From positions 1 to 34,391 of the IMG/VR virus record IMGVR_UViG_3300028228_000421: a DNA stretch of 34,391 bases; one strand, written 5' to 3'. A program made the translations under genes and the position numbers. Below are positions 1 through 33,521 of this stretch, in pieces. The notes under the pieces were generated by a model. It made no database searches. It was not told the DNA's origin and saw only the letters and a list, made by a program, of their open reading frames with translations. Source of the DNA: a virus. Numbering within the stretch: position 1 is the first letter of the stretch; each line of letters begins with the position of its first letter.

Positions 1-50
1 CCGGACACAAGCGCGGCAAGAATCGTGCGGGATGAATACCACGGTTTCAT
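1..50 (-). CDS. Holin-like protein, 5' fragment cut by window edge
   Basis: These are the first 16 codons (MKPWYSSRTI...) of the 85-residue membrane protein found complete at 32211..32468. The ATG lies at 48..50 and overlaps the TAA stop of the upstream gene by one base (TAATG). The fragment is truncated only because the circular map was opened here. Confidence 0.85.
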   Translation of the reverse strand, partial: MKPWYSSRTILAALVS

Positions 51-352
51 TACATTTTGCCGCGAGCGATGAGGTTTTGAAGGGCAAGTTCCACAGTGGC
101 ATTGACGACCGAGGTGGACGCCTGAATGCCTGTAGCAATGGCCCGCGCTTGGATCTCGTCAACGGCCTGCTTACGCTTGATTTCCCCGGTGGCCTTGCTG
201 TCAGCCATAGATAGGACAACATCGAGAGCGATGGGCGCGAGTTGCTCCAAGAGGGTTGCCGCAGACGATGCTAGGATCGGCGCGAGGAAATTAAATAATG
301 CAACGGATGAGCCAGTAATCCAGGCCCAGAGTCGGAGGAATGTGTTCTTCAT
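50..352 (-). CDS. Small membrane protein of lysis region (100 aa)
   Basis: A 100-residue protein with a short positively charged N-terminus, a hydrophobic stretch at about residues 12-35, a second moderately hydrophobic stretch to about residue 50, and a polar Lys/Glu/Gln-rich C-terminal half predicted to be helical. The start overlaps the previous stop in an ATGA junction, and its own stop overlaps the next start in a TAATG junction. It is therefore translationally coupled with the neighbouring small membrane proteins. Its position just upstream of a two-TM holin-like gene and the lysin suggests a role in lysis or envelope disruption. No family was recognised with certainty. An identical copy lies at 32468..32770. 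Confidence 0.8.
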   Translation of the reverse strand: MKNTFLRLWAWITGSSVALFNFLAPILASSAATLLEQLAPIALDVVLSMADSKATGEIKRKQAVDEIQARAIATGIQASTSVVNATVELALQNLIARGKM

Positions 353-657
353 AATTTTTCTTTGACGTGTTCGAGAGCCCGCGTGTTGTCCGCCAATGCC
401 TTAGTGGCCCCGGCTAGGAGGACGGCCAATTCCCGGTTTGTGGTGATGAGATGCTCCGTAAAGTCCTTGCTCAGGGCTGTAAATTCTTGCCGTGCTTGCT
501 GGATTTGACTGGTAAAATACCGGGTCATCCACGCGCCGCAGATTAGGAAAATAATCAACATCGCCACAAACATCCAGCGGTCGGTCTGTTGGGCCATAAA
601 ATTTGCAGTTTCAAAGAGACCAGGCAGGTCAGTGGGATCGGGGATAGAAGGCGGCAT
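349..657 (-). CDS. Membrane-anchored coiled-coil protein (102 aa)
   Basis: A single strong transmembrane segment (about residues 28-44, WMFVAMLIIFLICGAW) is followed by a long polar helix (about residues 45-102) with heptad-like hydrophobic spacing. An N-in/C-out protein of this shape in a lysis region resembles an inner-membrane spanin subunit, but no outer-membrane partner was identified, so this is an inference. The stop overlaps the next start (ATGA). No Shine-Dalgarno site is visible; the upstream sequence is AT-rich (TTTTATATC before ATG). An identical copy lies at 32767..33075. Confidence 0.82.
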   Translation of the reverse strand: MPPSIPDPTDLPGLFETANFMAQQTDRWMFVAMLIIFLICGAWMTRYFTSQIQQARQEFTALSKDFTEHLITTNRELAVLLAGATKALADNTRALEHVKEKL

Positions 658-686: not shown

Positions 687-1103
687 TCATGGTTCTGGCG
701 TTGGCTCCGGCACGGGATCAATCGTCACGGTGCCGTCTTCGTTAATCGTGATGGCGGGAATGCGGCCGTTGATGGCGGCGAGGCGAGCGAGGCCAGCTGC
801 GTCGCCTTGCGCGGTCAGGAATCCGGCCACTAGCTCGCCAAATGATTGATTGATCGCAAAGACCGACGCGGCCTTGGTGCCGAGAGCGGCCAGCACGGCA
901 GCGGGATCGGGCGCGGACCATAGCCGCTGACTCGCATCGTCGAGATGGTTGAGGATTACGTCACGAGTCTGCGTTGGCGCGATAAGCAACTCGCGGGCTG
1001 TTCGCTGTGCTTGCGTCTCCGGCTCTGTGGTCAGGAGAGATTGCGCGGTTGCGTTAAGGGTGAGGGCCGCAAGGGCCGCGAGGATTGGGATTAGTTTTCT
1101 CAT
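687..1103 (-). CDS. Secreted protein with Sec signal peptide (138 aa)
   Basis: The N-terminus MRKLIPILAALAALTLNATA is a textbook Sec signal peptide: basic n-region, hydrophobic core and an A-T-A cleavage site before Q21. The mature part is helical and Ala/Leu-rich and ends in an acidic, proline-rich tail (EDGTVTIDPVPEPTPEP). The gene begins two bases after the stop of the signal-peptide fibre gene, so the two secreted proteins are probably made together. It may act in the periplasm at lysis, or it may be a chaperone or partner of the fibre. No family was recognised. An identical copy lies at 33105..33521. Confidence 0.82.
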   Translation of the reverse strand: MRKLIPILAALAALTLNATAQSLLTTEPETQAQRTARELLIAPTQTRDVILNHLDDASQRLWSAPDPAAVLAALGTKAASVFAINQSFGELVAGFLTAQGDAAGLARLAAINGRIPAITINEDGTVTIDPVPEPTPEP

Positions 1104-1105: not shown

Positions 1106-2584
1106 TTATTGCTCAGTCACGCGGATTTCCTGGACATATAAGTTGTCGGTATTTGTATCTCCGGCATTGGTTCTAATCGCCCAAAATGTTACAATGATTT
1201 GCGCTGCGGTTGATGGAATCACGATAGAATCGCTTTCGTAGAGTTTCGGATCTGTCGCTGAGGTGGGCGCGGCGTAATCGCTCCCAGTCACGGAGTCTCC
1301 CAAAATAGTGCCTCTCGCGGAGCTGAGCATTCCAGACAGGGCATTTCCTCCAGTGAGTTCAGCCGCGGTCAAATAGTTTAAATTAAACCTGAGCCTAAGA
1401 TTTCCGGCGCTAGTGCCATTAACCGCCACAACCGCGCCGATCTTAATTGTTTTCCCCGCCCATTCGCTCGGCGAGAGCGGCCCTTCGAGAACCGAGCCGT
1501 CCGCCCCGTCCACAAATGTCACAACCTGAGCAGTCCCAAAACTGGTGACGGTAAGCGACAAATTACTGTAAGTGCTCATCTTTGCCGCTCTCCACGCGAG
1601 TCCGGCCTTCGTGCGGCGAAAGTAGGCGTTGGGGATGTTCACCGTCCCAGCATTGATCGTCACGGCATCTCCGCTGGCGTCTCCAAGGGTCGTGTTGCCG
1701 CTCGCATTGACGGTGACAGGCGCGATAGTGCCCCCACTGATAGTGCCGGTGTTGACCGTCGTTCCCGCGAGCGTGCCGCTGGTGATGGTGCCCCCGGCTG
1801 CTGCGACACCGCCGAGGCCAACAAGCGTCTGATTCCCGGTGTTGATGCCGGAGGACGTGCCGGAGAAAATGCCGTCCTGCGTAGCGAGAGTGCCGAGGCC
1901 GAGGGTGCCCCGTCCGGCGGTTGCGTCGGCATCATCCAATAGGCTTAGGCCGAAGGCGCTGGCTTGGCTGTCGTCGAGCTTTAGATCCAGCGCGGTCTGA
2001 CCTGAGGTGGAGACAGGCTTGGCCGCATCGGATGTGTTGTCCACATTTCCGAGCCCCACGTCACCTTTGACGAGGCCCGTAGGGGTGGTGATTACCGGAG
2101 ATGTCAGGGTCTTGTTGGTGAGCGTTGCCGTCGCAGCGTCCTTTGTGGCATCGCTGGTGTTGTCCACGTTGCTGAGGCCAACCTGCGATTTGGTCATGTC
2201 GGTGAGCGCGGAGCCATTGCCGTTAAATGATCCGGTCGCAGTCACGTTGGTCGCATTCACGTTGGTCGTATTCACGTTGTTGGTCGCATTCACGTTGTTT
2301 TCCGCATACACGTTGGTCGCATCCACGTCGCCGGTCGCAGTCACGTTGCCGCTCGCAGTCACGGTGACAGGCGTGAGAGTCCCCCCGCTGATCGTGCCGG
2401 TGTTGATCGTCGTGAGCGCGAGCGTCCCGCTGGTGATGGTGGTAATCCCGGTAAAGGCATTGGTGCCAGTCCATGTTAGCTCTCCCGTGGCGGTCCCGTT
2501 AAATTTCGGGGACGAGATGTTGTTTTGAGCATGGACGGACCCCGAAATGAAAAGGATGGCGAGAATGTATTTAGGCAATTGCAT
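1106..2584 (-). CDS. Tail fibre-like protein with Sec signal peptide (492 aa)
   Basis: I chose the ATG at 2584 because it gives a clean signal peptide (MQLPKYILAILFISGSVHA, cleavage after V-H-A). The open frame extends further upstream to 2653 but without a plausible start context. The mature protein is a low-complexity beta-repeat fibre: Thr/Gly/Asn/Val-rich repeats (TSGTL, NTGTISGGT, VNATNV) plus two copies of VGLxNVDNTSDA, a motif common in phage tail fibres. The C-terminal ~200 residues (from about NAYFRRTKAG) look globular, a likely receptor-binding or trimerisation head. The start overlaps the upstream fibre/baseplate gene by 14 bases. A Sec signal on a tail fibre is unusual, because virion fibres normally assemble in the cytoplasm. 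The 5' part is missing from the second copy at the right end. Confidence 0.85.
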   Translation of the reverse strand: MQLPKYILAILFISGSVHAQNNISSPKFNGTATGELTWTGTNAFTGITTITSGTLALTTINTGTISGGTLTPVTVTASGNVTATGDVDATNVYAENNVNATNNVNTTNVNATNVTATGSFNGNGSALTDMTKSQVGLSNVDNTSDATKDAATATLTNKTLTSPVITTPTGLVKGDVGLGNVDNTSDAAKPVSTSGQTALDLKLDDSQASAFGLSLLDDADATAGRGTLGLGTLATQDGIFSGTSSGINTGNQTLVGLGGVAAAGGTITSGTLAGTTVNTGTISGGTIAPVTVNASGNTTLGDASGDAVTINAGTVNIPNAYFRRTKAGLAWRAAKMSTYSNLSLTVTSFGTAQVVTFVDGADGSVLEGPLSPSEWAGKTIKIGAVVAVNGTSAGNLRLRFNLNYLTAAELTGGNALSGMLSSARGTILGDSVTGSDYAAPTSATDPKLYESDSIVIPSTAAQIIVTFWAIRTNAGDTNTDNLYVQEIRVTEQ

Positions 2585-4136
2585 AATAATGGAGCAGGTA
2601 ATTGGCTGAGTCTGTGGGGCCGGAGAAATTGGCGGTGAAGCCAGTAGTGGCAATGCTTGCGGCCTCGATGGCTGCGTAAATCAAACCCTCGCCGGAAGGC
2701 GCTTCGATGGTGCAAATGATCGTGGTCGGCGCAACCGTCAACGCGGTGGAAAAGGTGACGTCTAATGTTGATACGCCGCTCCCGATGGCTTCCGCGCCGT
2801 ATCGTCCCACGCCCGGAACCGGGGTTGGGCTCAGGTTTCCAGCCTTGATAATGTCCTCAGAAATTGAGACGGAAGCGGAATAGGTTTGGATCTTGCCGGA
2901 CTCTGTGACTTCAACCTCGAAAACCAAGGTCAATTCGCTGGCCCCACTAACGTCAAAAAGGTCCTGAAGTGAAAAGGTGGAAAGCGTCAATGTCCCGGTC
3001 TTGCCAAGCGGTGCGGAAAGGATTGCGTCCTCGACCGTGATTTGCGGAAAGTTTGCGTTTTGTTTGCTGCCCGTAAAGCTCAAGACGTACGCGACGCCAG
3101 GGGTCCCGCTCACGCTGACGTTATCGGTCCCGATAGTATCGATAGCAACGAGCGCGGTTTGAACTGCGGAGACGGAAGCGTCAAAATCAATTTCGGCGGT
3201 CGTCCGCGCGGGAGTGGTGATCGTGCCAGTTCCCGAGTCGGCGGTGGCTGTGGTTATCGCTGCGCCGCCTGAAGTGGCTGCAATCGTGAATGTGGTTGGA
3301 GACGGTGCCGCTACAATATAATAAGTGGTGCCCTCTGTCCAGTTGGCCTCGTTAGTAAATCCCGTGCCGACTACTGGCTGGCCGACCGCAAAGCCGTGAT
3401 TGGCCGTGGTGGTAAAGACTCCCGCAACAACTGCCGCCGTGACGGAGCGCGTATCCGAAGGGATAGTAATGGAGAAAGTTCCGCCAACTGGAGCGGGCGC
3501 GAAATCAATTTGCTGGACCTCACTGGCCGTCAATGTCCCGGCAGTGACTGTGGACGGGGTAGCGGTGACGGTGCTGGCCAGGTTTGTAAAGCTGGTTTGG
3601 AGCGCGACGGGATCTGGCGAAAGAAAGATTTCCTGAACTTCCTGCACTGACCCCGACCCGGCAATGCGCTCAGAAACGATTGCAGTGGTGTCAGGGACTA
3701 GCGAGCTGTCTGTGACGGTGAACGCCGCCTGTGCTGCCGCTGTGACGAATGTAATGGCGTAGCGCGAACCGAACGCCGATTTGGTGATGGTGACGCCGCC
3801 CGCACTGGTGACAGATGCCAGAGCATTGACCGCCGTGGAGAGCGCGGCCGCAGTGATATTGTAGGCCAGCGCGGCGGTTGTGTCCCCGCTGAGAGTGATT
3901 GTCCAGGTGCCGCTGGTGGGAACTGCCCGCAAATCGCCGAGCCCAACTTTGATGCTGGCACCGGATTTATCCAGATACGAATACGGCCGGCCAAAAATGC
4001 CCGTTTGTTTTAAGAAATGGACTTCAACGGTGTCAGAGTCGCCATTGAAAAAGTCCGCCGGAAGCAATCTGCCGGAATCTGTATCCGACTTGACAAACGC
4101 AAGGTCGGTTGTATCGATGAAAAACTTGCGAGCCAT
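2571..4136 (-). CDS. Tail tip/fibre protein, lectin-like C-terminus (521 aa)
   Basis: The N-terminal ~65 residues include an extended segment (IFGRPYSYLDKSGASIKVGLG) similar in style to BppU-like baseplate attachment domains. The middle is made of beta-rich Thr/Ala/Val repeats, with at least two related modules containing paired TxxEI-D and GxxYxxTF elements. The C-terminal ~80 residues (VTFSTALTVAPTTIICTIEAP...NYLLHYYAIA) resemble H-type-lectin domains that bind surface carbohydrate. It lies between a Cys-rich tail-tip protein and the second fibre, so a host-recognition or baseplate role is likely. The gene is preceded by a TTTGACACC intergenic motif. The domain assignments are visual resemblance only. 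Confidence 0.8.
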   Translation of the reverse strand: MARKFFIDTTDLAFVKSDTDSGRLLPADFFNGDSDTVEVHFLKQTGIFGRPYSYLDKSGASIKVGLGDLRAVPTSGTWTITLSGDTTAALAYNITAAALSTAVNALASVTSAGGVTITKSAFGSRYAITFVTAAAQAAFTVTDSSLVPDTTAIVSERIAGSGSVQEVQEIFLSPDPVALQTSFTNLASTVTATPSTVTAGTLTASEVQQIDFAPAPVGGTFSITIPSDTRSVTAAVVAGVFTTTANHGFAVGQPVVGTGFTNEANWTEGTTYYIVAAPSPTTFTIAATSGGAAITTATADSGTGTITTPARTTAEIDFDASVSAVQTALVAIDTIGTDNVSVSGTPGVAYVLSFTGSKQNANFPQITVEDAILSAPLGKTGTLTLSTFSLQDLFDVSGASELTLVFEVEVTESGKIQTYSASVSISEDIIKAGNLSPTPVPGVGRYGAEAIGSGVSTLDVTFSTALTVAPTTIICTIEAPSGEGLIYAAIEAASIATTGFTANFSGPTDSANYLLHYYAIA

Positions 4137-4163: not shown

Positions 4164-4391
4164 TTACGTGTTGAGAGCACTATCGCAACAGCCGCTGGCC
4201 CTTGGAGCGGTTGCAGGGTGGCTTCTCTCGGCTCTTGCGAAAAGCTCTGTGGCGAATTCTTGAGTGTTATTCCCGGCAGCGATGCATGATTGGCATTGTC
4301 CAAGGTAAGGCTTGCCGCCGTAGAGATGGAGAGCACAAAGTCGGCGTCCAGTGTCTTTGCCGGGTGGCTGGGATTGGTGTGGGCAGGTCAT
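4164..4391 (-). CDS. Small Cys-rich, probable zinc-binding protein (75 aa)
   Basis: This 75-residue protein carries C3, C19, C33 and C36 in a C-x15-C-x13-C-x2-C pattern around a GGKPYLGQC segment, which suggests a structural zinc site, and it has a further CC pair near the C-terminus. The ATG overlaps the stop of the larger Cys-rich tail protein in an ATGA junction, which is the main reason to call it real. Its place between tail-tip genes suggests a tail-tip accessory or an assembly factor. The function is not recognised. Confidence 0.7.
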   Translation of the reverse strand: MTCPHQSQPPGKDTGRRLCALHLYGGKPYLGQCQSCIAAGNNTQEFATELFARAERSHPATAPRASGCCDSALNT

Positions 4392-5023
4392 GCGGATATA
4401 ACTTCGAAATAGCGTTCAAACACCCTACAGTCAAACAACCAATAGGGACCTATCGGGGAATTTGCCCGATGCCCACAAAAAGATCTCTTCTCCATCCTTC
4501 CGCCCCAACCATACTCCGGCGCACCTGGCTCTTCACCAAACAAGCCCCCGAAACAGCTCCACCCTATATCATAAGGATTGAACCTTAGAAACCCAGACCA
4601 TTCGTTTTCCCATCGGCACAATGACACTCTGTGAACCAACACCTCCTCAAGAACTTCATCGTAGTCGACCAGCCTAATGATATAAGTTGCCGCAAACTGA
4701 TCCTCTACGGCATTGTCTCCCGGCGTCAGGTTGCCGTCTCCCCCGATCAGGCAGGCTTGAGTTGTCCTGACTCCGCCAACATATTTCGCCCACGTGTCAG
4801 TTTCAAAAATCACTCCGTTTGTCGTGTCGCCGTAGCTGGTCCCTGAGCGCGACAAGCTGCCGACCCCAAGAAGGGTGATTGCGTCCGGCAAATCCTCTGC
4901 AATTAATAAGTCACCAAGGGGCGTAGGTTTCGCCGGATACATGCAGCAACCTCCGCAGCACTCACAAGAAGCCTTCCCGTCTTTCAGGACAACCTTTCCG
5001 TCAGATAACTTGATCGTAGCCAT
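4388..5023 (-). CDS. Tail-region protein with N-terminal CC motif (211 aa)
   Basis: The N-terminus contains two short KVVLKDGK-like beta strands and then a dense cysteine cluster (C20, C22, C23, C26, C27; CECCGGCCMYP). After a linker comes a beta-rich domain with several aromatic residues and more cysteines. The cluster could bind metal or cross-link the virion tip. It lies four bases downstream of an 86-residue gene and overlaps a small Cys-rich gene at its 3' end, so several cysteine-rich products are made side by side. It is probably a tail-tip component; no enzymatic motif was seen. Confidence 0.78.
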   Translation of the reverse strand: MATIKLSDGKVVLKDGKASCECCGGCCMYPAKPTPLGDLLIAEDLPDAITLLGVGSLSRSGTSYGDTTNGVIFETDTWAKYVGGVRTTQACLIGGDGNLTPGDNAVEDQFAATYIIRLVDYDEVLEEVLVHRVSLCRWENEWSGFLRFNPYDIGWSCFGGLFGEEPGAPEYGWGGRMEKRSFCGHRANSPIGPYWLFDCRVFERYFEVISA

Positions 5024-5287: not shown

Positions 5288-5892
5288 TATGATACGCTAT
5301 TTCTCCCTATTACGTTATATTTCCATGATTCAATTACGGTTTCATATTGTCCGTAATTAGATATTACAGTATCAATGATTTGCCAGTTGCCGCGCACGTG
5401 AAGAAGACGAAGTAGCGTTGAAGAGGGATCATCTGATGAAAATATTATTGGTTCCAAAATTATTCTTTTCACGCTTCGCAATGGCGCATTAACTTGCTTT
5501 GTATAAAAATACCGATGAGTTGGGATTGTGCGAGAAATAACTTCGCCTAAGGGCCTGATTATTCTTGTAGTTTCAATCGTTACATTTAATGTCTCATAGC
5601 TTTCCCCTCGCCCGCCTTCAGAGACCCCGGTGACGCCATAAAAAACGCAGTCGAAATAAACGTGGGTTGCGTCTTGCGTCTCTGTTGGCGGATTGAACAA
5701 ATAAAGATTTGCGTATCCTTCCGCCCTGTAGCCCGGACGCAAGACCTGCCTGGCGTCCCTAATCTTATCTTTTCGGATAGCGTATCGCCGTTGCAACTCG
5801 GTCAGGTTCGATTGTCCAGTTGTAACCTTGTCCCCGGCCTGCCGGATAAGCGTGTCCGCGCCTAGATATTTGATGTTAGCGCCGTTGTTCAT
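5287..5892 (-). CDS. Hypothetical distal-tail protein (201 aa)
   Basis: It follows the tape measure gene directly with an ATGA overlap, the position usually held by distal-tail or tail-tip hub genes in siphophages. It is rich in Ile/Arg/Tyr with alternating beta-type patterns (TLNVTIETTRIIRPLGEV). The DNA here is visibly more AT-rich than the neighbouring tail genes, which may mean a separate origin. There are no catalytic motifs. The distal-tail role is inferred from position only. Confidence 0.78.
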   Translation of the reverse strand: MNNGANIKYLGADTLIRQAGDKVTTGQSNLTELQRRYAIRKDKIRDARQVLRPGYRAEGYANLYLFNPPTETQDATHVYFDCVFYGVTGVSEGGRGESYETLNVTIETTRIIRPLGEVISRTIPTHRYFYTKQVNAPLRSVKRIILEPIIFSSDDPSSTLLRLLHVRGNWQIIDTVISNYGQYETVIESWKYNVIGRNSVS

Positions 5893-7721
5893 GCCATTAC
5901 CTGTTGCGGGAGTTTGGGTTCAATTTTTTCAAGGATTGCTTTGATCGCGGTTACGATTGATTCCATGGATTGCGCTTCTGGCTTTTTGGAGTCTGGCCCC
6001 TTGCCTTGCTTGCTCTCGCCTTCGATTTCCTTTTCGGCTTGTTTCTTTTTTTCAGACTCCCCCTTCATCGCATCCATTCGCGCATCAAGCTCTTCCCTAA
6101 GAGTGCCGCCCTTTGTCCTGTCGGCCATTGGGATATCCCGATCAGCGTCAATTTGCTTTTGCCTTGCGGACTTCCCGAGGTTCCTGATCTTGTCTGCTCG
6201 CGGTTGCCGACGGATTGACGGTTGATTTATTTCAACCGCATCGGCATCGGCGGCATCGGCGGCATCAATAGGTCGCTCTCCTCTTTGCCGGGAAGTTGTT
6301 GGAGCAACCGGCGGCCCGTCTGGAGCAACCGGCGGCCCGTCTGGAGCAACCGGCGGCCCGTCTGGAGCAACCGGCGGCCCGTCTGGAGCAACCGGCGGCC
6401 CGTCTGGAGCAACCGGCGGCCCAATGAAATCCGCTGCCGAAATGCCAGCCAAGCCATCCTTAACTCCTTCTGTGATTTTCTCGCCAATGCCTTGCGCCGA
6501 TTGTGAAAGCGCAACCTGAGCTGCGGATTCGGCTTTTTGATAGGTGTCATATGCGCCAAGAACATCTTCCACAATGTAAGGAGTTGTGCTTTGCGCATAA
6601 TCAAAAGCATCTTTAATTGATTTGCCCGCTACCTGCATTCCTACTCTTGCGGACTCAGACGCAACAATCATTGCGGAATTTGCCTCAATCAATGGCTGTA
6701 CCCCGGCCTGAAGAGAAGGGAACACTACCGACAACGCATTGATAACATTCAGTGCCGCATCAATCAGTATCTTATTGAACTCAGACCCAGCATAAAATAG
6801 CCCTTGGAAAAGTAATGTTGTAACATTTGGGATTAAGTCCGCGCCAGCCAGATTAAAGAAGTTTTCTCCAACTGCAACTGCGTATTGAGCCATTGCTATC
6901 AGCTCATTCCCGATGTCTTTCACTCTTCCGTACATCTTCAGTCCGATAGCCTCAGCCGACGCGCCAAAGTTAGAAATTAACGCGGCTAGACCTTCTCCAA
7001 ATGACGCGCCGGAACCAGCTGCGTCTAATGTCGTTAACGATCCGATAAGCTCATTGATTGCTGGCAAAACTTCCGAGAGAAGCCCTGCAGAAAATTCTGT
7101 GCCTTTACTTTTAATGGCAGCAAAACCATCGCCAAAATCATCAAACGCTTGATTTGATTTATCCAAAACGTCAGGCAGGCTTCCAAGCTGATCTTTTGAT
7201 CGCTGGATTTGCCCATCAAAATCTCTCAAGAGCGGAAGCAATTTAGACCCGGACTTTCCAAAAACGCCCATGGCTGCGGCAGCTCTTTTTGTCGGGTCAT
7301 CAATTGCAGCAATCCCGGCAGACATGATTTGCATTTGCTCCGTGGGTAATTTGCCCTCCAGGTCTGCGGCGGTTAGGCCCATGAGCGCGAGCGCGTCAAC
7401 CGCCTCGGCGGTTCCTTCGGACGCGTCTTGGATAGACTTCTGCATTTTTGCAATAGCCGGACCAACATTCTCAGCTCCCGCTCCTGCATTTTGAAACGAC
7501 CTTTCCAGAATTGCCAGATTGCCAGCCGTGTCTCCCGTGCTGGAAGCCAAGTCGTTCAACCGTCCTCCCATGTCGAGCGCGTCGGAAAATGACGAAATGA
7601 CTGCCCGCACCGAAATGAAGGCGGCAGCCATTCCAGCAATCGACCCCATAGCGCCCTTTATGCCGCTGCGAAAAGCCTTAGCGTCGGCCCCTATTTTGAA
7701 ACTGAGTGCTTCAACGGCCAT
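5889..7721 (-). CDS. Tail tape measure protein (610 aa)
   Basis: This is the longest late gene. The N-terminus (ALSFKIGADAKAFRSGIKGA) is a typical tape-measure start, followed by Ala/Gly-rich amphipathic helix with the FGKSGSKLLPLL motif seen in many siphophage tape measures (about residues 150-165). Hydrophobic segments lie in the middle, and the C-terminal region contains six PPVAPDG repeats followed by a highly charged Lys/Glu/Arg-rich segment. The family sets tail length and is ejected with DNA. With 610 residues the predicted tail is modest, below about 100 nm. The gene overlaps its upstream neighbour by 11 bases and the next gene by ATGA. Confidence 0.92.
   Translation of the reverse strand: MAVEALSFKIGADAKAFRSGIKGAMGSIAGMAAAFISVRAVISSFSDALDMGGRLNDLASSTGDTAGNLAILERSFQNAGAGAENVGPAIAKMQKSIQDASEGTAEAVDALALMGLTAADLEGKLPTEQMQIMSAGIAAIDDPTKRAAAAMGVFGKSGSKLLPLLRDFDGQIQRSKDQLGSLPDVLDKSNQAFDDFGDGFAAIKSKGTEFSAGLLSEVLPAINELIGSLTTLDAAGSGASFGEGLAALISNFGASAEAIGLKMYGRVKDIGNELIAMAQYAVAVGENFFNLAGADLIPNVTTLLFQGLFYAGSEFNKILIDAALNVINALSVVFPSLQAGVQPLIEANSAMIVASESARVGMQVAGKSIKDAFDYAQSTTPYIVEDVLGAYDTYQKAESAAQVALSQSAQGIGEKITEGVKDGLAGISAADFIGPPVAPDGPPVAPDGPPVAPDGPPVAPDGPPVAPDGPPVAPTTSRQRGERPIDAADAADADAVEINQPSIRRQPRADKIRNLGKSARQKQIDADRDIPMADRTKGGTLREELDARMDAMKGESEKKKQAEKEIEGESKQGKGPDSKKPEAQSMESIVTAIKAILEKIEPKLPQQVMA
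6301..6426 (-). repeat. 21-bp tandem repeats in tape measure gene
   Basis: Five identical 21-bp units start at 6301, 6322, 6343, 6364 and 6385, and a sixth at 6406 diverges after 17 bases. Each encodes PPVAPDG in the tape measure protein. Perfect identity, including synonymous positions, suggests recent expansion or active homogenisation. Confidence 0.97.
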
Positions 7722-8334
7722 TGACGTATAGCCCCGGATATTTTGCGGCGATGTCTTTGGCTTTTTTAAAGACGCCTTTCCGCATATTTGTTTTGAAGAA
7801 TGAAAGTCTGCCTCTGATCGCGCCAGACAATGCCCGCACGATTCCGGGAGCGTAATTTCGCAGAGACGTGCCTTGGATTGTGTATCCCGATCCGCTCCCG
7901 GTCTCGCTGCCGCTTGCGTCGATGGGGTAGTCTCCCTTTTTGGTTGTGGCCTTCCGAACTTGTCCGGCGACCTTGATCGTCAAATTAAGTTCCTGCGCAA
8001 TTTGCAGCCAGATTTTGCGAGCCAATCCTCGCACTTTCAACTTTTCGACGAGGCTTCGTTTTTGCTCACGCTTAATCATTGCCCAGGTTGCGTCTGGGTA
8101 TTTGTGGCTGAGCTTGTAAAGTTTCCCGTTGATGTTTTTCCATCCCTTCGCTTCCTGCGCGGCTTTAATGTCTTTGGCTTGCGCCATTGATGTACGCCGA
8201 GCCGCCCCTTCGAGAATCTTTTCCGTTTCGTTTCTAACGACTGTTCGGAAATCCTTGCCGGAAACTCGCGCCAATTCGCGCAAAGCTCCAGCCATTCGGC
8301 TCGCGTCCATCTCGATTGTTACAGTCTTAGCCAT
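7711..8334 (-). CDS. HK97 gp10-like minor tail/neck protein (207 aa)
   Basis: The N-terminal region (MDASRMAGALRELARVSGKDFRTVVRNETEKILEGAARRT) has the long-helix pattern of the HK97 gp10-like / virion morphogenesis families, and the rest is basic. I chose the ATG at 8334; a TTG lies one codon upstream. The start lies inside the -1 frameshift extension of the chaperone gene, whose stop is at 8327..8329. Its position after the chaperone and before the tape measure is unusual for gp10-like proteins, which usually precede the tail tube gene. The assignment is moderate. Confidence 0.75.
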   Translation of the reverse strand: MAKTVTIEMDASRMAGALRELARVSGKDFRTVVRNETEKILEGAARRTSMAQAKDIKAAQEAKGWKNINGKLYKLSHKYPDATWAMIKREQKRSLVEKLKVRGLARKIWLQIAQELNLTIKVAGQVRKATTKKGDYPIDASGSETGSGSGYTIQGTSLRNYAPGIVRALSGAIRGRLSFFKTNMRKGVFKKAKDIAAKYPGLYVNGR

Positions 8335-8940
8335 CAAATATAGAGTCTATGTCAACACTGTCCCCGGCCCACCTTAGCCCTACGCCGGCGCGGAAAAGAA
8401 TCGTGTCGTGAATTTGGATGATAACCGCCGCTGGAATTTCCCACATTATTGATTGATAACTCCATCCGGTTTCCTTAGCGATTGATGAAACTACCCACGC
8501 TGACCAACCCGGCGACCAGCTTTTTTTTTAGGCCCCGGTGCGTCTGTGGACTTGGTTTGGATTCGAGCAAAATCTTGGCACATTTTCTGAATGATTGGGG
8601 TGAGCTTGGAAATGTCTGCCATGATCGCTCCGTTTTCGGTCAGATATTCATTTACGAATTCGCGCCATGCCACGCGCCCTTCCCATGCCATGTACCGCGC
8701 CCGCCTTGCTGCCTGTTTGTCGGCCTGGTGGATTAAAAGGAAACCAATGACATCCGAAACGCCAGCATTTTTAGAGCTTCCAGTGAAGAATCGGTTTTGG
8801 GTTTCTTGCAGCAAATCCAGCGTCCCAAAGGATAGCGGGGAAAGCGCAATTCCATTAAAGGAAATGGAATCATGTTGCGTGAATGCCCTGCGTTGGGGCG
8901 CGTCGTGGTCGTCTTCGAGAAAGTCGGTGTCGTCGTTCAT
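8327..8940 (-). CDS. Tail assembly chaperone, -1 frameshift product (204 aa)
   Basis: The zero frame reads AAA AAA AAA (Lys 138-140) at 8529..8521. Slipping back one base there gives AGC TGG TCG and opens a 64-residue extension that ends at the TAA at 8327..8329. The extension contains MWEIPAAVIIQIHDTILF and RAGVGLRWAG, a plausible protein segment, and it stays open across the otherwise unexplained gap between the G-like gene and the next ATG. Lambda gpG/gpGT-type chaperones make such a minor fusion to bind the tape measure and tail tube subunits. The layout (directly upstream of the tape measure region, long A run, overlap with next gene) fits that model closely. Confidence 0.85.
8491..8940 (-). 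CDS. Tail assembly chaperone, G-like short form (149 aa)
   Basis: I chose the ATG at 8940 rather than the further upstream in-frame start (9075) because the latter overlaps the previous gene and 8940 has the recurrent A/C-rich leader (AAACCAAAATACCAA before ATG). The acidic N-terminus is followed by a helical core (about residues 40-125) and ends in KKKAGRRVGQRG. It is the major zero-frame product; the longer frameshift form shares its first 140 residues. A role as chaperone for tail assembly is inferred from the frameshift architecture and the position upstream of the tape measure gene. Confidence 0.85.
   Translation of the reverse strand: MNDDTDFLEDDHDAPQRRAFTQHDSISFNGIALSPLSFGTLDLLQETQNRFFTGSSKNAGVSDVIGFLLIHQADKQAARRARYMAWEGRVAWREFVNEYLTENGAIMADISKLTPIIQKMCQDFARIQTKSTDAPGPKKKAGRRVGQRG
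8521..8529 (-). promoter_or_regulatory. A9 slippery site for -1 frameshift
   Basis: The minus strand has nine consecutive A residues exactly filling three Lys codons, followed by GC. It contains the heptamer A AAA AAA, which is strongly slippery in bacteria. Shifting -1 here opens the 64-codon downstream frame. Confidence 0.85.
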
Positions 8941-8960
8941 TTGGTATTTTGGTTTAGTTT

Positions 8961-9434
8961 TTAAGAGTGATTGATAAGTGCGGTCAATTGTTCGCGGTTG
9001 GCCCCCTCGCGATAAATCACAGTTCGACCGCCAGAAATTTCCTTGGCAATCATCGCCTTTTGATTGCGACCGCAATGCATAAGCGTCGAGCCGTTGTTGA
9101 GCCCGGAGCGGGCTGCGTCAAAAGCAATTAAAACGTACTCCTCTGCGGTGACTCCGCGAGCAGCAAGGATTTCATCAACTCGGCCTGGCAGGTCCACCTT
9201 GTTGTTGAAAGCGTTGAGCATATCCACCGCCTTCACTCCTTGGTGCTTAGGCTCAAGTCGGAAAGATAACGTCTCCCGGCCCTTAGCGATGATTCTGGAA
9301 ATACCAGTGATTACTTCTTCGCCGTTTTCAATTGCGGTTTTCAGTCCGAAGCCTGCCGCCGTCATTGCTGCGGCGAGCTTTAGGTTATCGGTCAAAAAAA
9401 ATTGATCGCGTTTTTCCTGCGGGAGTTTGTTCAT
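8961..9434 (-). CDS. Hypothetical tail-region protein (157 aa)
   Basis: It starts with MNKLPQEKRDQFFLTDNLKLAAAMTAAGFGLK. The FxTDNLxLAAAxxxxGF pattern is reminiscent of small phage proteins with a DUF5659-like fold, but I cannot confirm this. It lies between the tail tube gene and the chaperone. The leader ATATACCAA before ATG matches the A/C-rich starts of nearby genes. No catalytic motif is visible. The remainder alternates helix and beta strand. Its real role is unknown. Confidence 0.78.
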   Translation of the reverse strand: MNKLPQEKRDQFFLTDNLKLAAAMTAAGFGLKTAIENGEEVITGISRIIAKGRETLSFRLEPKHQGVKAVDMLNAFNNKVDLPGRVDEILAARGVTAEEYVLIAFDAARSGLNNGSTLMHCGRNQKAMIAKEISGGRTVIYREGANREQLTALINHS

Positions 9435-9470
9435 TTGGTATATGTCGGGCCACGAAGGGCCGGGTCATTT

Positions 9471-9806
9471 TTAAGCTGAGATGCCGCCCCATGAGGTCAA
9501 GCTAATGGTCACGCGTTGGAAGTCCGTATTGCCGAGCTTGAGTCCTTTTGCAGTGATGTAATACGTGCCAGCGGGAGCCCCGGTTACGGAGATTGCGTCA
9601 TTGATTGCAAGGGCCTCGGAGTTGTTCACCCCTTCAATTGTCCCGGTGATTTTGGGGGCGTAAATTGCAGCGGAAACAAAGTCTCCATCTTCATCAGCAA
9701 CTTCCGCAATGCTGCGGATTTCGTCAAAAGAAGCGGATTGAACCACCAATCCGGTGACGGTTGGAGCCCCAAAAGAAAGTGCGGTGCCGAGGACAGTAGA
9801 AGCCAT
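9471..9806 (-). CDS. Major tail tube protein (111 aa)
   Basis: A compact beta-rich protein with TGTIEGVNNSEALAINDAISVTGAPAGTYYITAKGLK and a final VTISLTSWGG strand, the pattern of small siphophage tail tube subunits (gpV-like fold). It lies directly downstream of the tail terminator-like gene and upstream of the chaperone and tape measure, the canonical order. At 111 residues it is shorter than lambda gpV and lacks an Ig-like C-terminal domain. A TTTGACAC motif lies just upstream. Confidence 0.8.
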   Translation of the reverse strand: MASTVLGTALSFGAPTVTGLVVQSASFDEIRSIAEVADEDGDFVSAAIYAPKITGTIEGVNNSEALAINDAISVTGAPAGTYYITAKGLKLGNTDFQRVTISLTSWGGISA

Positions 9807-9818
9807 ACCACTGCGGCG

Positions 9819-9826
9819 GTGTCAAA
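9819..9826 (-). other. TTTGACAC intergenic motif
   Basis: The minus strand reads TTTGACAC immediately after the TAA stop at 9827..9829 and 12 bases before the tail tube ATG. It is the same octamer seen at 4151, 12447 and 15363. Confidence 0.45.
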
Positions 9827-10255
9827 TTAACGAAGCCCGCCGTGCAAGGTGAGGTTGCGCGTCCTCACGAAACGATTCCCTTCGATCGCTTGCTCTCTGC
9901 CCCCGGTGACAGCACCATAAATTGCGAGCGTGCTAGTCGTTAGCTTTGCCGAAAGTCCTGAGTCCTCCACCACACAATCTATTCCAGAAACGATCCGGGT
10001 GTCTTTGCTGGACGAGTTTTGCTGTTTGGCGTCGATGTAGGTTATGATTTCAACCGCCACCTCGTAAACATTTACCGAAATGAGATCGGGCGTCTCTAGG
10101 ATTTCCGCTCTCACCACCACGCGGGGAAGGATTGCATTATCTTCGTCGCCGCCTTGCATATACGGTACGACCTGGACGCCGCCAGTGATCGGCATTTGCC
10201 TAGTAATAAGCCTGCAAAGCCCGTCCTCAATTAATCTGTCCAATGTGTTGCTCAT
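9827..10255 (-). CDS. Tail terminator/completion-like protein (142 aa)
   Basis: It begins with a helix (MSNTLDRLIEDGLCRLITRQ) followed by beta strands (AILPRVVVRAEI, VNVYEVAVEIITYID) and a C-terminal helix-strand, consistent with the gpU/tail-terminator style fold. It sits between the head-closure-like gene and the tail tube gene, as expected for a protein that caps the tail tube before joining to the head. It overlaps the upstream gene by four bases (ATGA). The assignment rests on position and predicted fold, not on a signature motif. Confidence 0.72.
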   Translation of the reverse strand: MSNTLDRLIEDGLCRLITRQMPITGGVQVVPYMQGGDEDNAILPRVVVRAEILETPDLISVNVYEVAVEIITYIDAKQQNSSSKDTRIVSGIDCVVEDSGLSAKLTTSTLAIYGAVTGGREQAIEGNRFVRTRNLTLHGGLR

Positions 10256-10563
10256 GAGTAGGGAGCGACGAGGGTAAGAAACCAGGAAACCTCGTCTTTA
10301 GTGACTGGCCTTCCGACTTTATGCAGGACTTCGTTTACGAAAATATCTTCGTCCGGCTCCGGGTCACCTCCAAGAACCTGAGAAAACGGGATCAAAATGT
10401 TCCCGGTCAGCTCTTGCTCAAATCCGCCAGCGGCAAGAACGTCCGATTCAGAAAGCTCTGAATAAATGCCGGTGAATGATTTGTTCCGAAATGTAAACTT
10501 TGTCGGAATCTCCGCCACAGTCTGCGCCAATCCGGCGGCCATCAAATCGGAAAATTCGCTCAT
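10252..10563 (-). CDS. Head-tail connector-like protein (103 aa)
   Basis: A small protein (MSEFSDLMAAGLAQTVAEIPTKFTFRNKSFTGIYSELSESD...) with an N-terminal helix and then a beta-barrel-like pattern, similar in layout to head-closure/stopper proteins. It is the first gene after the major capsid gene and its terminator, and it precedes the tail terminator-like gene. The upstream gap holds TGTGACACC, a variant of the TTTGACAC motif. The function is inferred from gene order. Confidence 0.68.
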   Translation of the reverse strand: MSEFSDLMAAGLAQTVAEIPTKFTFRNKSFTGIYSELSESDVLAAGGFEQELTGNILIPFSQVLGGDPEPDEDIFVNEVLHKVGRPVTKDEVSWFLTLVAPYS

Positions 10564-10587
10564 ACAAAGGGCACGGTGTCACATTAC

Positions 10588-10624
10588 AAAAAAGACCTCG
10601 GAGCGGGATTGCTGCCGAGGTCTT
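10588..10624 (-). terminator. Rho-independent terminator after major capsid gene
   Basis: On the minus strand a perfect 10-bp stem (AAGACCTCGG pairing with CCGAGGTCTT) encloses a 13-base loop and runs into TTTTTT. It lies 20 bases after the coat protein stop. It probably raises coat mRNA relative to downstream tail genes through partial termination and 3'-end protection. Confidence 0.92.
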
Positions 10625-10644
10625 AATTTGCTGGGGTGAATTAC

Positions 10645-15473: not shown

Positions 15474-17285
15474 TCAATGACTGCTTTCTTCGGTCTCCGG
15501 CTCCGGTGCCCCTACCAACTTGTAAAGAAACGCCATGAAGGTAATTCCGATCTCGCAATCCCAGTAATGGTTGGGACGCTTTCCGATCTGCCGCCAGATT
15601 CCGCGCTTGCTGTCCTTCGTTTCTGACTCCATCGAATCGACGTAAAGCTGGCAAATGTCGTCGGGGATCTGGTGCTCCTCCATCGCCCGCAACCGTGAGA
15701 AAACGTCTTTGAAATACGTGTTGGAAAACTCCAGCACCTTGATCTTTTGGCCCTTTACGTGGTGCGCCTTGCCTGTCATGTATTCGATTACTCGCTGATA
15801 CGGGACAAGCAAGGTCGCCCGTTTCCCTCGCGTCTTGGTAAAGTTGTTAATGTCCCGGCCACGCATTGCGCTCCATTTGTATTGATGGCAAAAATCCAAG
15901 GCATCTGATTTCCAGTTGCCGACATCGAGCGCGAAGGCCCCTGACTTCAGACCGTAATGCTTCACCGCCTCGTCCACCTCCTCAATTTTCTGCAACTCCT
16001 CGCAATACACCAGCCGGGACCCGCCACCGCCAAACGCGCGAATGCAAACAGGGAAGCGGTCCTTTTGCATATCGGCAAACCCAAAACGCTGATCTTCGCC
16101 GTTAATTTGCGGTGCCTCTTCAGCCGCGCCTTTGTCGTAGTCCTCAACCCGGTAGCCTGCCGCGCCCTTAGTGTTGACTATCGGAATCTCTTTGTCCTTG
16201 ATCGTCCAGAATTTCGCCTCTTCTTTTTGAGTAAATGCTTTCAACTCCTCAATGCTCCCGCGCCGCAAGGAATCTTTTGCGCGTAAAAAGCTCTCGATTA
16301 TGTCGGCCCAATCACGCCACCAAAGCGTATAGCCGGAATAGCGGAACGATTCATGCCCCGGAGAATTGTTGAAATTGGTTTGCACGTACTTCCAATTCTG
16401 CACTAGTTCCCGGCGCACTCGCTCACGGTTTTCAATCACGCCGTCACACTCGGGGCATTGCATTCTCACCGTCTGCCGGACCGCTTTCCAGTTCCATTCT
16501 TTGGTTTCTATGTTTCGAGTTTCTGGAGTTTCGTCCCAGCACAAAATAAATTTCCCGTCATCTTCCCGCCGAGTCTCCGGTGAAAAATACTTTTCGCAAT
16601 GCGGACATTGAACATGAAAAATTTTCTGCGTCCCTTGATGCCACCACGCGCCCCATTCATCCCAATCAGACTCCCCATATTCATTTGCAATCTGTTCGCC
16701 ACCCTGTGAAACACTCAGCACTTTCTTATTTCTGACTGCATTTGCACGGCGCAAAATCTCCGCCATCGTTCCCTTTTTCCACCGCCACATTTCGTCATTC
16801 AGAATGTAGTGAATCGTTTTTGATTGCAGGCCGGAGAGCGATGGTCCTTGGATCTGAATAAACATCGCGGGAGTGATGATGTGTTCCTTGGTAATGTCGT
16901 CCCGCCCAAGCCCTGCCACGATGTCCCGCGTGCCTGGAGACTCACGCAGGCACGGAAGAAGCTTCGTCTTTGCGAAAAACGCGGACTCAGAATCCGTCTG
17001 CGTTGTAATCATCATATTCCCCGGCCTCTTCTTTAGTGCCCTGGCAACCGCGATTTGCTCGAAGCCTGTCTTGCCGCCTTGCACCCCAGCCAGCACCGAT
17101 ACGCCCCATATTTTAGGATCGTCCCATGCCCGCATTGGTTCAATGAGCATCGGGATATTATCCCGCCTAAAGTCCTCAGCAATCGGCGAACCTGGGAATC
17201 GCACGTACTTTTCCGCCCACTCATCCAACGGCAAATCGTCATCTTCGGGAATCGAAGCGAGCAGGGATTTAGAAATAAAGCTCAT
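15474..17285 (-). CDS. terL: Terminase large subunit, GpA family (603 aa)
   Basis: The ATPase domain has a Walker A variant GVQGGKT (residues 67-73) and a Walker B segment HYILNDEMWRW with the acidic pair at 164-165. Two CPxC zinc knuckles (CPHCEKYF, CPECDGV) follow at about 220-290, which is characteristic of lambda GpA-type terminases. The C-terminal nuclease domain includes GAFALDVGN with a metal-binding Asp. The enzyme cuts concatemeric DNA and drives packaging. It starts two bases after the small subunit stop. Confidence 0.95.
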   Translation of the reverse strand: MSFISKSLLASIPEDDDLPLDEWAEKYVRFPGSPIAEDFRRDNIPMLIEPMRAWDDPKIWGVSVLAGVQGGKTGFEQIAVARALKKRPGNMMITTQTDSESAFFAKTKLLPCLRESPGTRDIVAGLGRDDITKEHIITPAMFIQIQGPSLSGLQSKTIHYILNDEMWRWKKGTMAEILRRANAVRNKKVLSVSQGGEQIANEYGESDWDEWGAWWHQGTQKIFHVQCPHCEKYFSPETRREDDGKFILCWDETPETRNIETKEWNWKAVRQTVRMQCPECDGVIENRERVRRELVQNWKYVQTNFNNSPGHESFRYSGYTLWWRDWADIIESFLRAKDSLRRGSIEELKAFTQKEEAKFWTIKDKEIPIVNTKGAAGYRVEDYDKGAAEEAPQINGEDQRFGFADMQKDRFPVCIRAFGGGGSRLVYCEELQKIEEVDEAVKHYGLKSGAFALDVGNWKSDALDFCHQYKWSAMRGRDINNFTKTRGKRATLLVPYQRVIEYMTGKAHHVKGQKIKVLEFSNTYFKDVFSRLRAMEEHQIPDDICQLYVDSMESETKDSKRGIWRQIGKRPNHYWDCEIGITFMAFLYKLVGAPEPETEESSH

Positions 17286-18849: not shown

Positions 18850-19475
18850 TCTGGTTGCCCAATAAACTGAGAGTCTTTTTCGTTGCCCTTTGGTCGCGAT
18901 GGATACCAAATAAATTTAGCGGAGTCCGGGAGCAATTGACCGATACATTTTCCAAATGCAATCACCGCGGCCTCGCTTGGAAAATGTACAATTATTGTTC
19001 GGACTCCTTTTGGCTGGTTTTCATATTCGGGCATATCTTCCCATTCCTGTTCTGGATTTTCTACAAAATCGCCCGGCGTGATGATGTTTTCCAGTTCTTC
19101 GTCCGTCCATCCGCTGAACGTCAAGCTCGTTAAGTCGATAGACTTTAATTCAGTGATTTCGATTTTAAGCATCTCGTCATCCCACCCCCCGCCAATTTCC
19201 GCAAGCCGATTGTCGGCTAGGATATACGCCCGCCGCTGCGTGTCGGTAAGGTGCCCTAGCCTGATGCACGGCACGTCCGCCAGCTCCAAAAATTGCGCGG
19301 CCAGCACCCGGCCATGACCCGCGATGATTCCGTCGTCCTTGTCGATCAACACCGGATTACAGAAACCGAACTCCCTGATGCTCCCGGCAATCTTCGCAAC
19401 CTGGCCAGCGTCGTGCTTCTTTGCATTTCTGGCATACGGCACCAGCGTTTCAGTTTTCAGCGTTTCGATTTTCAT
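18846..19475 (-). CDS. ParB-like nuclease-domain protein (209 aa)
   Basis: The N-terminal half is a ParB/Srx domain: LVPYARNAKKHDAGQVAKIAGSIREFGF, then the core IIAGHGRVLAAQFL (about residues 50-63), and the RRAYILADNRLAE helix. The C-terminal segment (VIVHFPSEAAVIAFGKCIGQ...KFIWYP) matches an extra domain that follows ParB modules in many phage proteins. Stand-alone ParB-like proteins often lie next to phage terminases, sometimes fused to methyltransferases. Here the gene overlaps the glycosyltransferase (ATGA), so the pair may act together on the DNA to be packaged. Confidence 0.88.
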   Translation of the reverse strand: MKIETLKTETLVPYARNAKKHDAGQVAKIAGSIREFGFCNPVLIDKDDGIIAGHGRVLAAQFLELADVPCIRLGHLTDTQRRAYILADNRLAEIGGGWDDEMLKIEITELKSIDLTSLTFSGWTDEELENIITPGDFVENPEQEWEDMPEYENQPKGVRTIIVHFPSEAAVIAFGKCIGQLLPDSAKFIWYPSRPKGNEKDSQFIGQPE

Positions 19476-31200: not shown

Positions 31201-31770
31201 TCAATGGGTGTACTCAAAATGCATGGCATCCCTTGACCAGAACGCCCCGGCTGATAACCACCCATAACTCGAGAATACTTCCATAATTTCAATCGGCATC
31301 GTTGCGACTGTTGGCCAGTGGGTGCGGTTGCCATTGTTGGCGGCGTCGAGGTCGATGGCTGCCCCCCTAGCGTGGAGGGATGGCGTAGAGCCGCCCCGCA
31401 TGAGGCGATTATTGTAACAGCCGTCATAGGTTGTAGCGGCCCGCATGATCCGCTTGTTGGACCCGTAAAGGGATTTGATCTCAGTAAACACATCGAGCAG
31501 CGTGGGAACGCACTCCCGATGCACCCTTGTAAAATTCACTGGTCGTCCCTCGTAGTACATGGGGATCGGAAATTGCATCCGTTCGAGTTTCGATTCGTCG
31601 CCCGCTTTACCATAAAACGCCGTCAGCGATCTCTGGTCGGAGCGGGGTGCTGGGTTCGGCTGCGGCATCATTGCCAAGAGGTGAGCTTGGCAGGCAGCGG
31701 TGGATCTCGGTCCCCAGAACCCATCTGGGTTAGCTCCCACGCGTTTTTGCAAATCGGCGATGTCGATCAT
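31201..31770 (-). CDS. Endolysin, M15 peptidase (L-Ala-D-Glu/VanY type, 189 aa)
   Basis: I chose the ATG at 31770 (MIDIADLQKRVGANPDGFWGPRST), which begins with a peptidoglycan-binding-like helix pair; the longer frame overlaps the preceding small genes. The M15 zinc ligands are H133 and D140 in SLHARGAAID and H184 in DAMHFEY. The enzyme should cleave the stem or cross-link peptide of peptidoglycan. It has no signal peptide, so it needs holin for release; several candidate membrane proteins lie directly upstream. It overlaps the previous stop (ATGA). Confidence 0.92.
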   Translation of the reverse strand: MIDIADLQKRVGANPDGFWGPRSTAACQAHLLAMMPQPNPAPRSDQRSLTAFYGKAGDESKLERMQFPIPMYYEGRPVNFTRVHRECVPTLLDVFTEIKSLYGSNKRIMRAATTYDGCYNNRLMRGGSTPSLHARGAAIDLDAANNGNRTHWPTVATMPIEIMEVFSSYGWLSAGAFWSRDAMHFEYTH

Positions 31771-31910
31771 GGCGTTGCTAAGTCGATGGTTGCCGTGATG
31801 TCTGGATAAACGGGGTCGAGATGGCAGCGGGAAAAAGTCATGGCGACGATTCCGGCCAGGATTATGACGAGGAAAACCGTTGCCCAGCGCGAAGAGTTTG
31901 TTGCGGTCAT
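31767..31910 (-). CDS. Tiny single-TM protein before the lysin (47 aa)
   Basis: MTATNSSRWATVFLVIILAG starts a protein with one TM segment (about residues 11-26), a Cys at position 29 and a short hydrophilic tail (HLDPVYPDITATIDLATP). The ATG shares a base with the stop of the 71-aa gene (TAATG) and its stop overlaps the lysin ATG. It could be a holin, antiholin or spanin-like protein. An alternative start lies two codons upstream (31916). Confidence 0.72.
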   Translation of the reverse strand: MTATNSSRWATVFLVIILAGIVAMTFSRCHLDPVYPDITATIDLATP

Positions 31911-32125
31911 TACCATGTTGCGTGGGTTTGAATTTTTGCGGAGAAAATCGGATACGGAATCCCGCTGTCTGAAACTTTCCAGCCAGTGACGATTTTGCCC
32001 TCTGCGTTTTCGACAAGCTGAGTGAAAAACCCTCGCTGGTCCTCGATTGGAACGAGTTGAAGGATATCTTCAGGCACCCGGCCAAGAAACTCCCCGTAGC
32101 GGTCAACCTCGAAGCCGCGATTCAT
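31910..32125 (-). CDS. Hypothetical protein in lysis cassette (71 aa)
   Basis: I chose the ATG at 32125 (MNRGFEVDRYGEFLGRVPED), which overlaps the stop of the 30-aa TM gene. It is a soluble-looking protein with no TM segment; the remainder (FFTQLVENAEGKIVTGWKVS...) shows alternating strands and ends in KIQTHATW. No family was recognised. Its position inside the lysis cassette suggests a regulator of lysis or an accessory of the lysin. Confidence 0.7.
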   Translation of the reverse strand: MNRGFEVDRYGEFLGRVPEDILQLVPIEDQRGFFTQLVENAEGKIVTGWKVSDSGIPYPIFSAKIQTHATW

Positions 32126-32214
32126 GGCGTCAGAGGGAATCGCCAGAGGAGTAGCGCGATAAATGCAAACGTTGAAAGGATAACTGCGGCGACGTGCATT
32201 TTGACGATGTTCAT
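32122..32214 (-). CDS. 30-aa single-TM microprotein
   Basis: MNIVKMHVAAVILSTFAFIA continues LLLWRFPLTP. It is a single TM helix with a basic end on each side. Both ends overlap neighbouring genes in ATGA junctions (32211..32214 and 32122..32125), which is strong support for translation despite the size. A role in lysis timing or as a membrane co-factor of the holin is possible. Confidence 0.65.
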   Translation of the reverse strand: MNIVKMHVAAVILSTFAFIALLLWRFPLTP

Positions 32215-32468
32215 AGCCGCCTCCCTGGCTTGATCTCAGCATGAGGATTAAAGGGTCCCCCGGGAATGGTTTTGCCGATTTGATCTTTTGCGCGAATGCG
32301 TCCTGAGATGGTGGCGACCATCGAGCCGAGCGCGATTGCCGCAAGGATTGCGTCGGTGATTCCTCCCGCGAATTCCTGCACGTCGTACTTGAAAAAGATG
32401 GCGACGATGGCAAGGATGCCGGACACAAGCGCGGCAAGAATCGTGCGGGATGAATACCACGGTTTCAT
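32211..32468 (-). CDS. Holin-like two-TM protein (85 aa)
   Basis: The start MKPWYSSRTILAALVSGILA is typical of small phage holin-like proteins (KPWYxSK/RT). Two TM segments are visible (about residues 9-27 and 39-58), followed by a polar, basic tail (RIRAKDQIGKTIPGGPFNPH). It lies two to four genes upstream of the M15 lysin. Two-TM topology corresponds to class II holins. The assignment is good by context and topology. The first 16 codons are also present at 1..50. Confidence 0.78.
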   Translation of the reverse strand: MKPWYSSRTILAALVSGILAIVAIFFKYDVQEFAGGITDAILAAIALGSMVATISGRIRAKDQIGKTIPGGPFNPHAEIKPGRRL

Positions 32469-33075: not shown

Positions 33076-33104
33076 GATATAAAATTGCTAAAGAGCACTC
33101 AGCC

Positions 33105-33521
33105 TCATGGTTCTGGCGTTGGCTCCGGCACGGGATCAATCGTCACGGTGCCGTCTTCGTTAATCGTGATGGCGGGAATGCGGCCGTTGATGGCGGCGAG
33201 GCGAGCGAGGCCAGCTGCGTCGCCTTGCGCGGTCAGGAATCCGGCCACTAGCTCGCCAAATGATTGATTGATCGCAAAGACCGACGCGGCCTTGGTGCCG
33301 AGAGCGGCCAGCACGGCAGCGGGATCGGGCGCGGACCATAGCCGCTGACTCGCATCGTCGAGATGGTTGAGGATTACGTCACGAGTCTGCGTTGGCGCGA
33401 TAAGCAACTCGCGGGCTGTTCGCTGTGCTTGCGTCTCCGGCTCTGTGGTCAGGAGAGATTGCGCGGTTGCGTTAAGGGTGAGGGCCGCAAGGGCCGCGAG
33501 GATTGGGATTAGTTTTCTCAT
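33105..33521 (-). CDS. Secreted 138-aa protein, second copy
   Basis: This is identical to 687..1103, part of the terminal repeat; the signal peptide is intact. Confidence 0.82.
   Translation of the reverse strand: MRKLIPILAALAALTLNATAQSLLTTEPETQAQRTARELLIAPTQTRDVILNHLDDASQRLWSAPDPAAVLAALGTKAASVFAINQSFGELVAGFLTAQGDAAGLARLAAINGRIPAITINEDGTVTIDPVPEPTPEP

Follow-up and report, generated by a model that had tools for sequence, protein, structure and literature searches.

The window analysed here, a 34,391-bp stretch that constitutes one IMG/VR virus record, encodes a tail-fibre-like protein with a predicted signal peptide, next to a second predicted exported protein and close to tail and lysis genes (Table 1). 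The first 1,973 bases of the window are identical to its last 1,973 (positions 1-1973 and 32419-34391, a direct repeat), so the genome looks complete, circular or terminally redundant, with a unit of 32,418 bp. The fibre C terminus, the second exported gene, and the holin-like genes lie within this repeat, and each is thus present twice in the window; a reading of these copies as gene duplications was dropped, since the ends are one exact repeat. The gene set, with a gpA-type terminase, a lambda-type portal, an S49 head protease, a P22-like coat protein, and a tape-measure protein, is that of a siphophage, and no integrase was seen in the subset of the window's ORFs tested. All genes with an assigned role lie on the minus strand, apart from one doubtful plus-strand ORF (30272-31063) with a weak match to Mom-like DNA modification proteins (4.8e-5). 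A separate match at 18238-18909, to the beta-glucosyl-HMC-alpha-glucosyltransferase family (phrog_842, 3.7e-33), suggests that the phage DNA is modified.

Among cultured matches of the large terminase, Verrucomicrobia phage P8625 has the best E-value (4e-22). Because the terminase has matches at E ≤ 1e-30 in 13 of 388 Verrucomicrobiota genomes, as against none of 386 Pseudomonadota genomes, the host is probably a member of the Verrucomicrobiota, which are diderm.

Table 1. Features of the window, with position, strand, and basis of assignment.
Feature	Position	Strand	Basis or remark
Fibre-like protein, 492 aa, predicted Sec/SPI signal peptide	1106..2584	-	heuristic; PHROG tail-fibre shaft matches
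Fibre signal peptide, predicted, residues 1-19, VHA/Q	2528..2584	-	heuristic score 11.3
Fibre C-terminal part, residues 296-492, beta-sandwich, exchangeable among relatives	1109..1699	-	low to moderate model confidence
Second exported protein (predicted), 138 aa, helical (low confidence), no known family	687..1103	-	
Signal peptide of second protein, predicted, residues 1-20, ATA/Q	1044..1103	-	
Second copy of the 687-1103 gene	33105..33521	-	part of 1,973-bp terminal repeat
Upstream tail protein, 521 aa, no signal peptide, relative of P8625 gp22	2571..4136	-	
Small protein, one transmembrane segment, lysis-cassette candidate	349..657	-	
Holin_LLH-like protein	50..352	-	Pfam PF09682 E 4e-4, below cut-off
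Holin-like membrane protein	32211..32468	-	phrog_4712 E 3e-6
M15-type endolysin	31201..32106	-	phrog_17001 1.3e-20, PF13539 1.2e-7
gpA-type large terminase, used for host inference	15474..17285	-	
Tape-measure protein, tail module marker	5889..7721	-	

Predicted signal peptides of the fibre and its neighbour

The fibre gene is placed in the tail module, between the tail tip and the lysis genes, and its ATG overlaps the stop codon of the upstream 521-aa tail gene by 14 nt. The product of this upstream gene matches P8625 gp22, an annotated tail fibre (blastp, 2e-9). A preliminary description of the locus had proposed that the fibre starts with a Sec signal and that the adjoining gene also encodes a secreted protein, and had called for a SignalP-type prediction. 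We scored N termini with a heuristic (not SignalP) that weighs the n-region, the h-region, and an AxA-type cleavage site. The fibre, which begins MQLPKYILAILFISGSVHA/QNN (slash, predicted cleavage site), scores 11.3, and the second protein, which begins MRKLIPILAALAALTLNATA/QSLL, scores 11.5; both proposed signals are thus borne out at this level, and both ORFs were found at the coordinates given, on the minus strand. Three of the 49 window ORFs pass the heuristic, the third being the holin-like membrane protein; by this measure, all remaining tail and head genes of the window lack a signal peptide. Of internal 45-mers taken from P8625 proteins, 0.16% score at least 10, as do 1.6% of open stretches that begin with ATG, whatever the frame. 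When the sequences are shuffled with their composition kept, 4.6% and 9.5% of the shuffles pass, whatever their score, so composition alone is controlled only in part.

The annotated ATG of the fibre appears plausible. An obvious Shine-Dalgarno sequence is absent from all window genes compared, and the context of the fibre start (TTATT ATG) is similar to that of neighbouring genes. The preliminary description had considered translation from a start downstream of the signal; no in-frame start was found just after it. A TTG at 2653 was rejected as the start, because translation from there would give an 83-nt overlap with the upstream gene and leave the signal buried. The fibre signal is invariant across relatives even at the DNA level, and its conservation is hence uninformative about signal function there. 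The fibre has no lipobox (SVHA/QNN) and contains no cysteine.

The signal of the second protein, by contrast with that of the fibre, does vary among relatives (MKNLIPILAALAALTLHGHA, MKNLIPILAALAVALTLNATA), with its features kept and the following QSLLTTEPET invariant. Outside the close clade, no relatives were found in phages or in PHROGs. One weak match among the 388 Verrucomicrobiota genomes was discarded, as it contains internal stops and lies inside an unrelated large membrane protein. The structure model of the second protein (pLDDT 52) is too uncertain for structure searching. A further protein of the tail region (4388-5023, 211 aa) has 10 cysteines, with CECCGGCC near its N terminus, and no family match.

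Architecture of the fibre

The fibre gene is kept in every relative that covers the place. Residues 1-48 are identical in relatives, the number of shaft repeats, which match PHROG tail-fibre shafts, varies, and the C-terminal region comes in two unrelated forms. This combination of a constant N terminus, a variable shaft, and an exchangeable C terminus is the behaviour of a receptor-binding protein. In one relative, L001, the fibre (from position 1585) reaches 709 aa because its shaft is duplicated in tandem and in frame.

AlphaFold models residues 296-492 as a beta-sandwich with a mean pLDDT of 59, rising to about 70 over the second half. The best Foldseek matches of this model include a Klebsiella phage tailspike, carbohydrate-binding modules, and a phage baseplate protein; at low to moderate model confidence, the C terminus thus resembles carbohydrate-binding modules and phage tailspike domains. 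The fibre has no Pfam match, hence no C-terminal S74 chaperone domain, and PDB sequence searches with the fibre and the second protein returned nothing useful. By its anatomy as predicted from sequence, the protein is a tail fibre, for which an export signal would not be expected.

Signal-bearing fibres in other phages and prophages

Signal-bearing fibre genes recur in tail/lysis modules of other Verrucomicrobiota prophages, of Bacteroidota phages, and of a Bradyrhizobium/Nitrobacter clade. Most of about 75 other viral loci with the GNVDNTSD shaft motif have ordinary cytoplasmic N termini. Clear signals, unrelated in sequence, mark independent cases in the viral contigs L014, where the fibre follows a gpJ-like gene, L017, L032, a 175-kb phage in which three signal-bearing fibre-like genes lie side by side (5845-10885), and L049, where a lysozyme and a further exported protein come after the fibre. 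Prophage-like tail modules with such fibres, further independent cases, were found in Bradyrhizobiaceae (L108), Nitrobacter (L122, whose fibre has an S74 domain), Chitinophagaceae (L105), and Verrucomicrobia (L152).

The Verrucomicrobiota prophages L284, L286/L296, and L290, found through their terminase alone, repeat the gene order of the window, with the signal-bearing fibre placed after a gp22-like or minor-tail protein that has no signal. Further exported proteins follow in L284 and L286/L296, and the L284 fibre has a tail-fibre C terminus (phrog_11393, 3.2e-15). The corresponding fibre has no signal in P8625, L297, or L305/L306, nor do the Flavobacterium and Janthinobacterium phage fibres that share the shaft motif. 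In L305 (9333-10169) and L306 (9534-10370), gp22-like relatives with the fibre fused to them precede a lipoprotein (LAGC lipobox) and membrane proteins. Many Bacteroidota encode secreted proteins with the same shaft motif that are apparently chromosomal, and we kept these apart from the phage cases; in L114, L119, L130, L132, and similar loci, such proteins combine the N terminus GISYQAVI with the GNVDNTSD motif of the phage fibres. The same arrangement in unrelated phages of several phyla suggests that some phages probably send tail fibres through the host secretion machinery, rather than building all of them in the cytoplasm.

Two forms of the fibre N terminus in the Bradyrhizobium/Nitrobacter clade

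The N-terminal domain of the fibres of this clade is known in two forms, one starting at its own methionine (MAQHDYVIAN...) and one with a signal of about 20-30 residues ahead of it. Proteins annotated as tail fibres or as structural in Roseobacter, Pelagibacter, and Prochlorococcus phages have the own-methionine form. The signal is present in 17 of the 20 closest loci (L185-L204, near-identical ones included) and absent in L196, L202, and L203. In the alignment, the start methionine of the signal-less homologues stands at the predicted cleavage column of the signal-bearing copies, as in the close pair L201 (...AIEA/SQNATVLPNTG) and L196 (M/SQNSLVLPTTG), and cleavage would thus restore an ordinary fibre N terminus.

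The signal is accompanied by cysteines. Exactly two are present in the N-terminal domain of 14 of 16 distinct signal-bearing copies, as opposed to two or more in none of 42 signal-less ones, counts that come from related sequences and not from independent events. Over their full length, signal-bearing fibres mostly have an even number of cysteines, and those of L184 and L108 contain 12-21 per 1000 residues, compared with 5.5-6.4 in the gpJ of the same phage. Such pairs and enrichment are what would be expected of periplasmic oxidative folding. Because the window fibre has no cysteine and the signal-bearing fibres of other Verrucomicrobiota and of Bacteroidota type mostly have 0-2, the disulfide argument holds for the Bradyrhizobium clade only; tested on the window's own clade, it does not apply.

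In Bradyrhizobium phage ppBdUSDA122-1, gpJ (PF24801, 2.5e-23) is followed by two signal-bearing fibres in tandem, the second with a Collar domain (2.9e-10). Laboratory Bradyrhizobium lysogens release phage spontaneously (PMC10127595). The signal-bearing protein at L108 5984-8272 and the signal-less one at L225 764-1861 share both the N-terminal domain and a phrog_863 Gly-rich C-terminal domain.

Discussion

The match between the predicted cleavage site and the start methionine of signal-less homologues, together with the cysteine pair that accompanies the signal, makes export very likely for the signal-bearing fibres as a class, and we consider it likely for the window fibre as well. Export of the fibre-like protein, and likewise of its neighbour, is thus well supported, if by inference. 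The preliminary description had listed exclusion, lysis, decoration of released virions, and assembly outside the cytoplasm without ranking them. Among these, we favour that of a real tail fibre that is exported, given the exact junction, the retained N-terminal domain, and the tandem copies. Its place beside holin and endolysin genes is no indication of a role in lysis.

The protein would then be a late receptor-binding tail fibre with a cleavable Sec signal, translated beside the cytoplasmic 521-aa tail-tip/fibre protein. Once exported, it would lose its first 19 residues by cleavage and form a folded trimer in the periplasm; lysis of the cell by holin and endolysin would release it, and the released fibre could dock on progeny tails as the cell lyses, where it would recognise the host through a glycan-binding tip. 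The signal peptide, the tail/lysis position, the C-terminal exchange, and the recurrence were computed here. We see roughly an even chance that this whole course of events, with docking on progeny virions as its most likely end, is correct. Docking at lysis is preferred because the virion-fibre N-terminal domain is retained and, in one clade, two such genes directly follow gpJ. Late docking is chemically possible: in extracts, completed T4 particles can still acquire their long tail fibres. Tailed-phage virions and their tail fibres are, however, normally assembled in the cytoplasm, and an exported fibre and the virion would stay apart until lysis, which counts against docking. It also counts against this reading that the phage already encodes a fibre-like protein without a signal, of 521 aa, and that P8625, L297, and L305/L306 have no signal on the corresponding fibre.

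An exported fibre could instead remain a free adhesin that is never part of the virion. Acting in the periplasm, or once the cell has lysed, it would bind surface glycans or the receptor used by the phage itself, block superinfection, and keep progeny off debris, much as T5 Llp does with another fold. Small exported proteins often adjoin the fibre, as in the window, L284, and L049, and Bacteroidota have signal-bearing proteins with the same shaft motif. Phages offer partial precedents in T5 Llp (PMC9586334) and lambda Lom (PMC12309495), and bacteria secrete tail-fibre-like adhesins such as the MAT proteins of Bdellovibrio (PMC10769870). A blocker would nevertheless have no obvious need for the virion-fibre N-terminal domain that is retained and conserved in the Bradyrhizobium clade, or for the tandem placement directly after gpJ; a soluble periplasmic protein, moreover, cannot reach outward-facing receptors before lysis, and the window fibre lacks the lipobox of an Llp-type lipoprotein. 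We regard a free adhesin, the main rival reading, as rather unlikely.

Quite improbable, in our estimate, is that the hydrophobic N terminus is a virion-attachment or packing segment, or that translation starts elsewhere, and that the fibre is a normal cytoplasmic virion protein. This would fit the usual cytoplasmic assembly of tail fibres, and the segment in the window's clade shows no variation that could reveal selection for signal function. Yet signals of unrelated sequence and the same features recur on fibres of unrelated phages, predicted cleavage regenerates the N terminus of signal-less homologues, cysteine pairs go with the signal in one clade, and the reading frame offers no alternative start just 3' of the signal. 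The signal-bearing fibre-like proteins common in Bacteroidota genomes could also point to recent capture of a secreted host protein with tail-fibre-like repeats and no settled phage role. This we hold to be very improbable, as the tail-module position is conserved across Verrucomicrobiota phages, the gene overlaps the upstream tail gene and is kept in all relatives covering the place, and the L284 fibre ends in a recognised tail-fibre domain.

The exported fibre favoured here shares its tail-module position, shaft repeats, and receptor-binding C terminus with conventional siphophage and marine-phage fibres (Roseobacter, Pelagibacter, Prochlorococcus), and the Bradyrhizobium-clade fibres have the same MAQHDY-type N-terminal domain as the marine phages. 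Conventional fibres start at this domain itself, whereas the exported kind adds a signal peptide and, in one clade, a cysteine pair. In P8625, the gene order of the tail is similar and gp22 is related to the 521-aa protein, but gp22 and gp24 have no signal peptide, and gp23 has a weak score of 6.0, compared with 11.3 for the window fibre, and is not fibre-sized. Filamentous phage coat proteins are virion proteins made with Sec signals, as is predicted for the window fibre; those virions assemble in the membrane, whereas the window is that of a tailed phage. T5 Llp, a small lipoprotein that limits superinfection (PMC9586334), and lambda Lom, an outer-membrane barrel encoded between tail-spike and fibre genes (PMC12309495), are phage envelope proteins with export signals, as predicted for the window fibre, but neither is a fibre. 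The MAT proteins, phage-tail-fibre-like adhesins with a beta-rich domain of about 130 aa after the signal and in many cases S74 (PMC10769870), are likewise signal-bearing and fibre-like; they are bacterial, and the likeness is one of description. In the open-licence papers searched, we found no report of signal peptides on tail fibres as a class.

Current pipelines pass such signal-bearing fibre genes without comment. Tentatively, they may represent a recurrent class in phages of diderm hosts, with Sec-exported fibres, periplasmic folding (with disulfides in one clade), and virions completed at lysis. Should the fibres stay free, they would constitute a new fold and mechanism for exclusion or for progeny protection. 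If they are exported, different rules would govern host range, the folding of the fibres (disulfides, possibly envelope modifications), and the control of adsorption, and if they are also added at lysis, tail-fibre assembly would be divided between two compartments.
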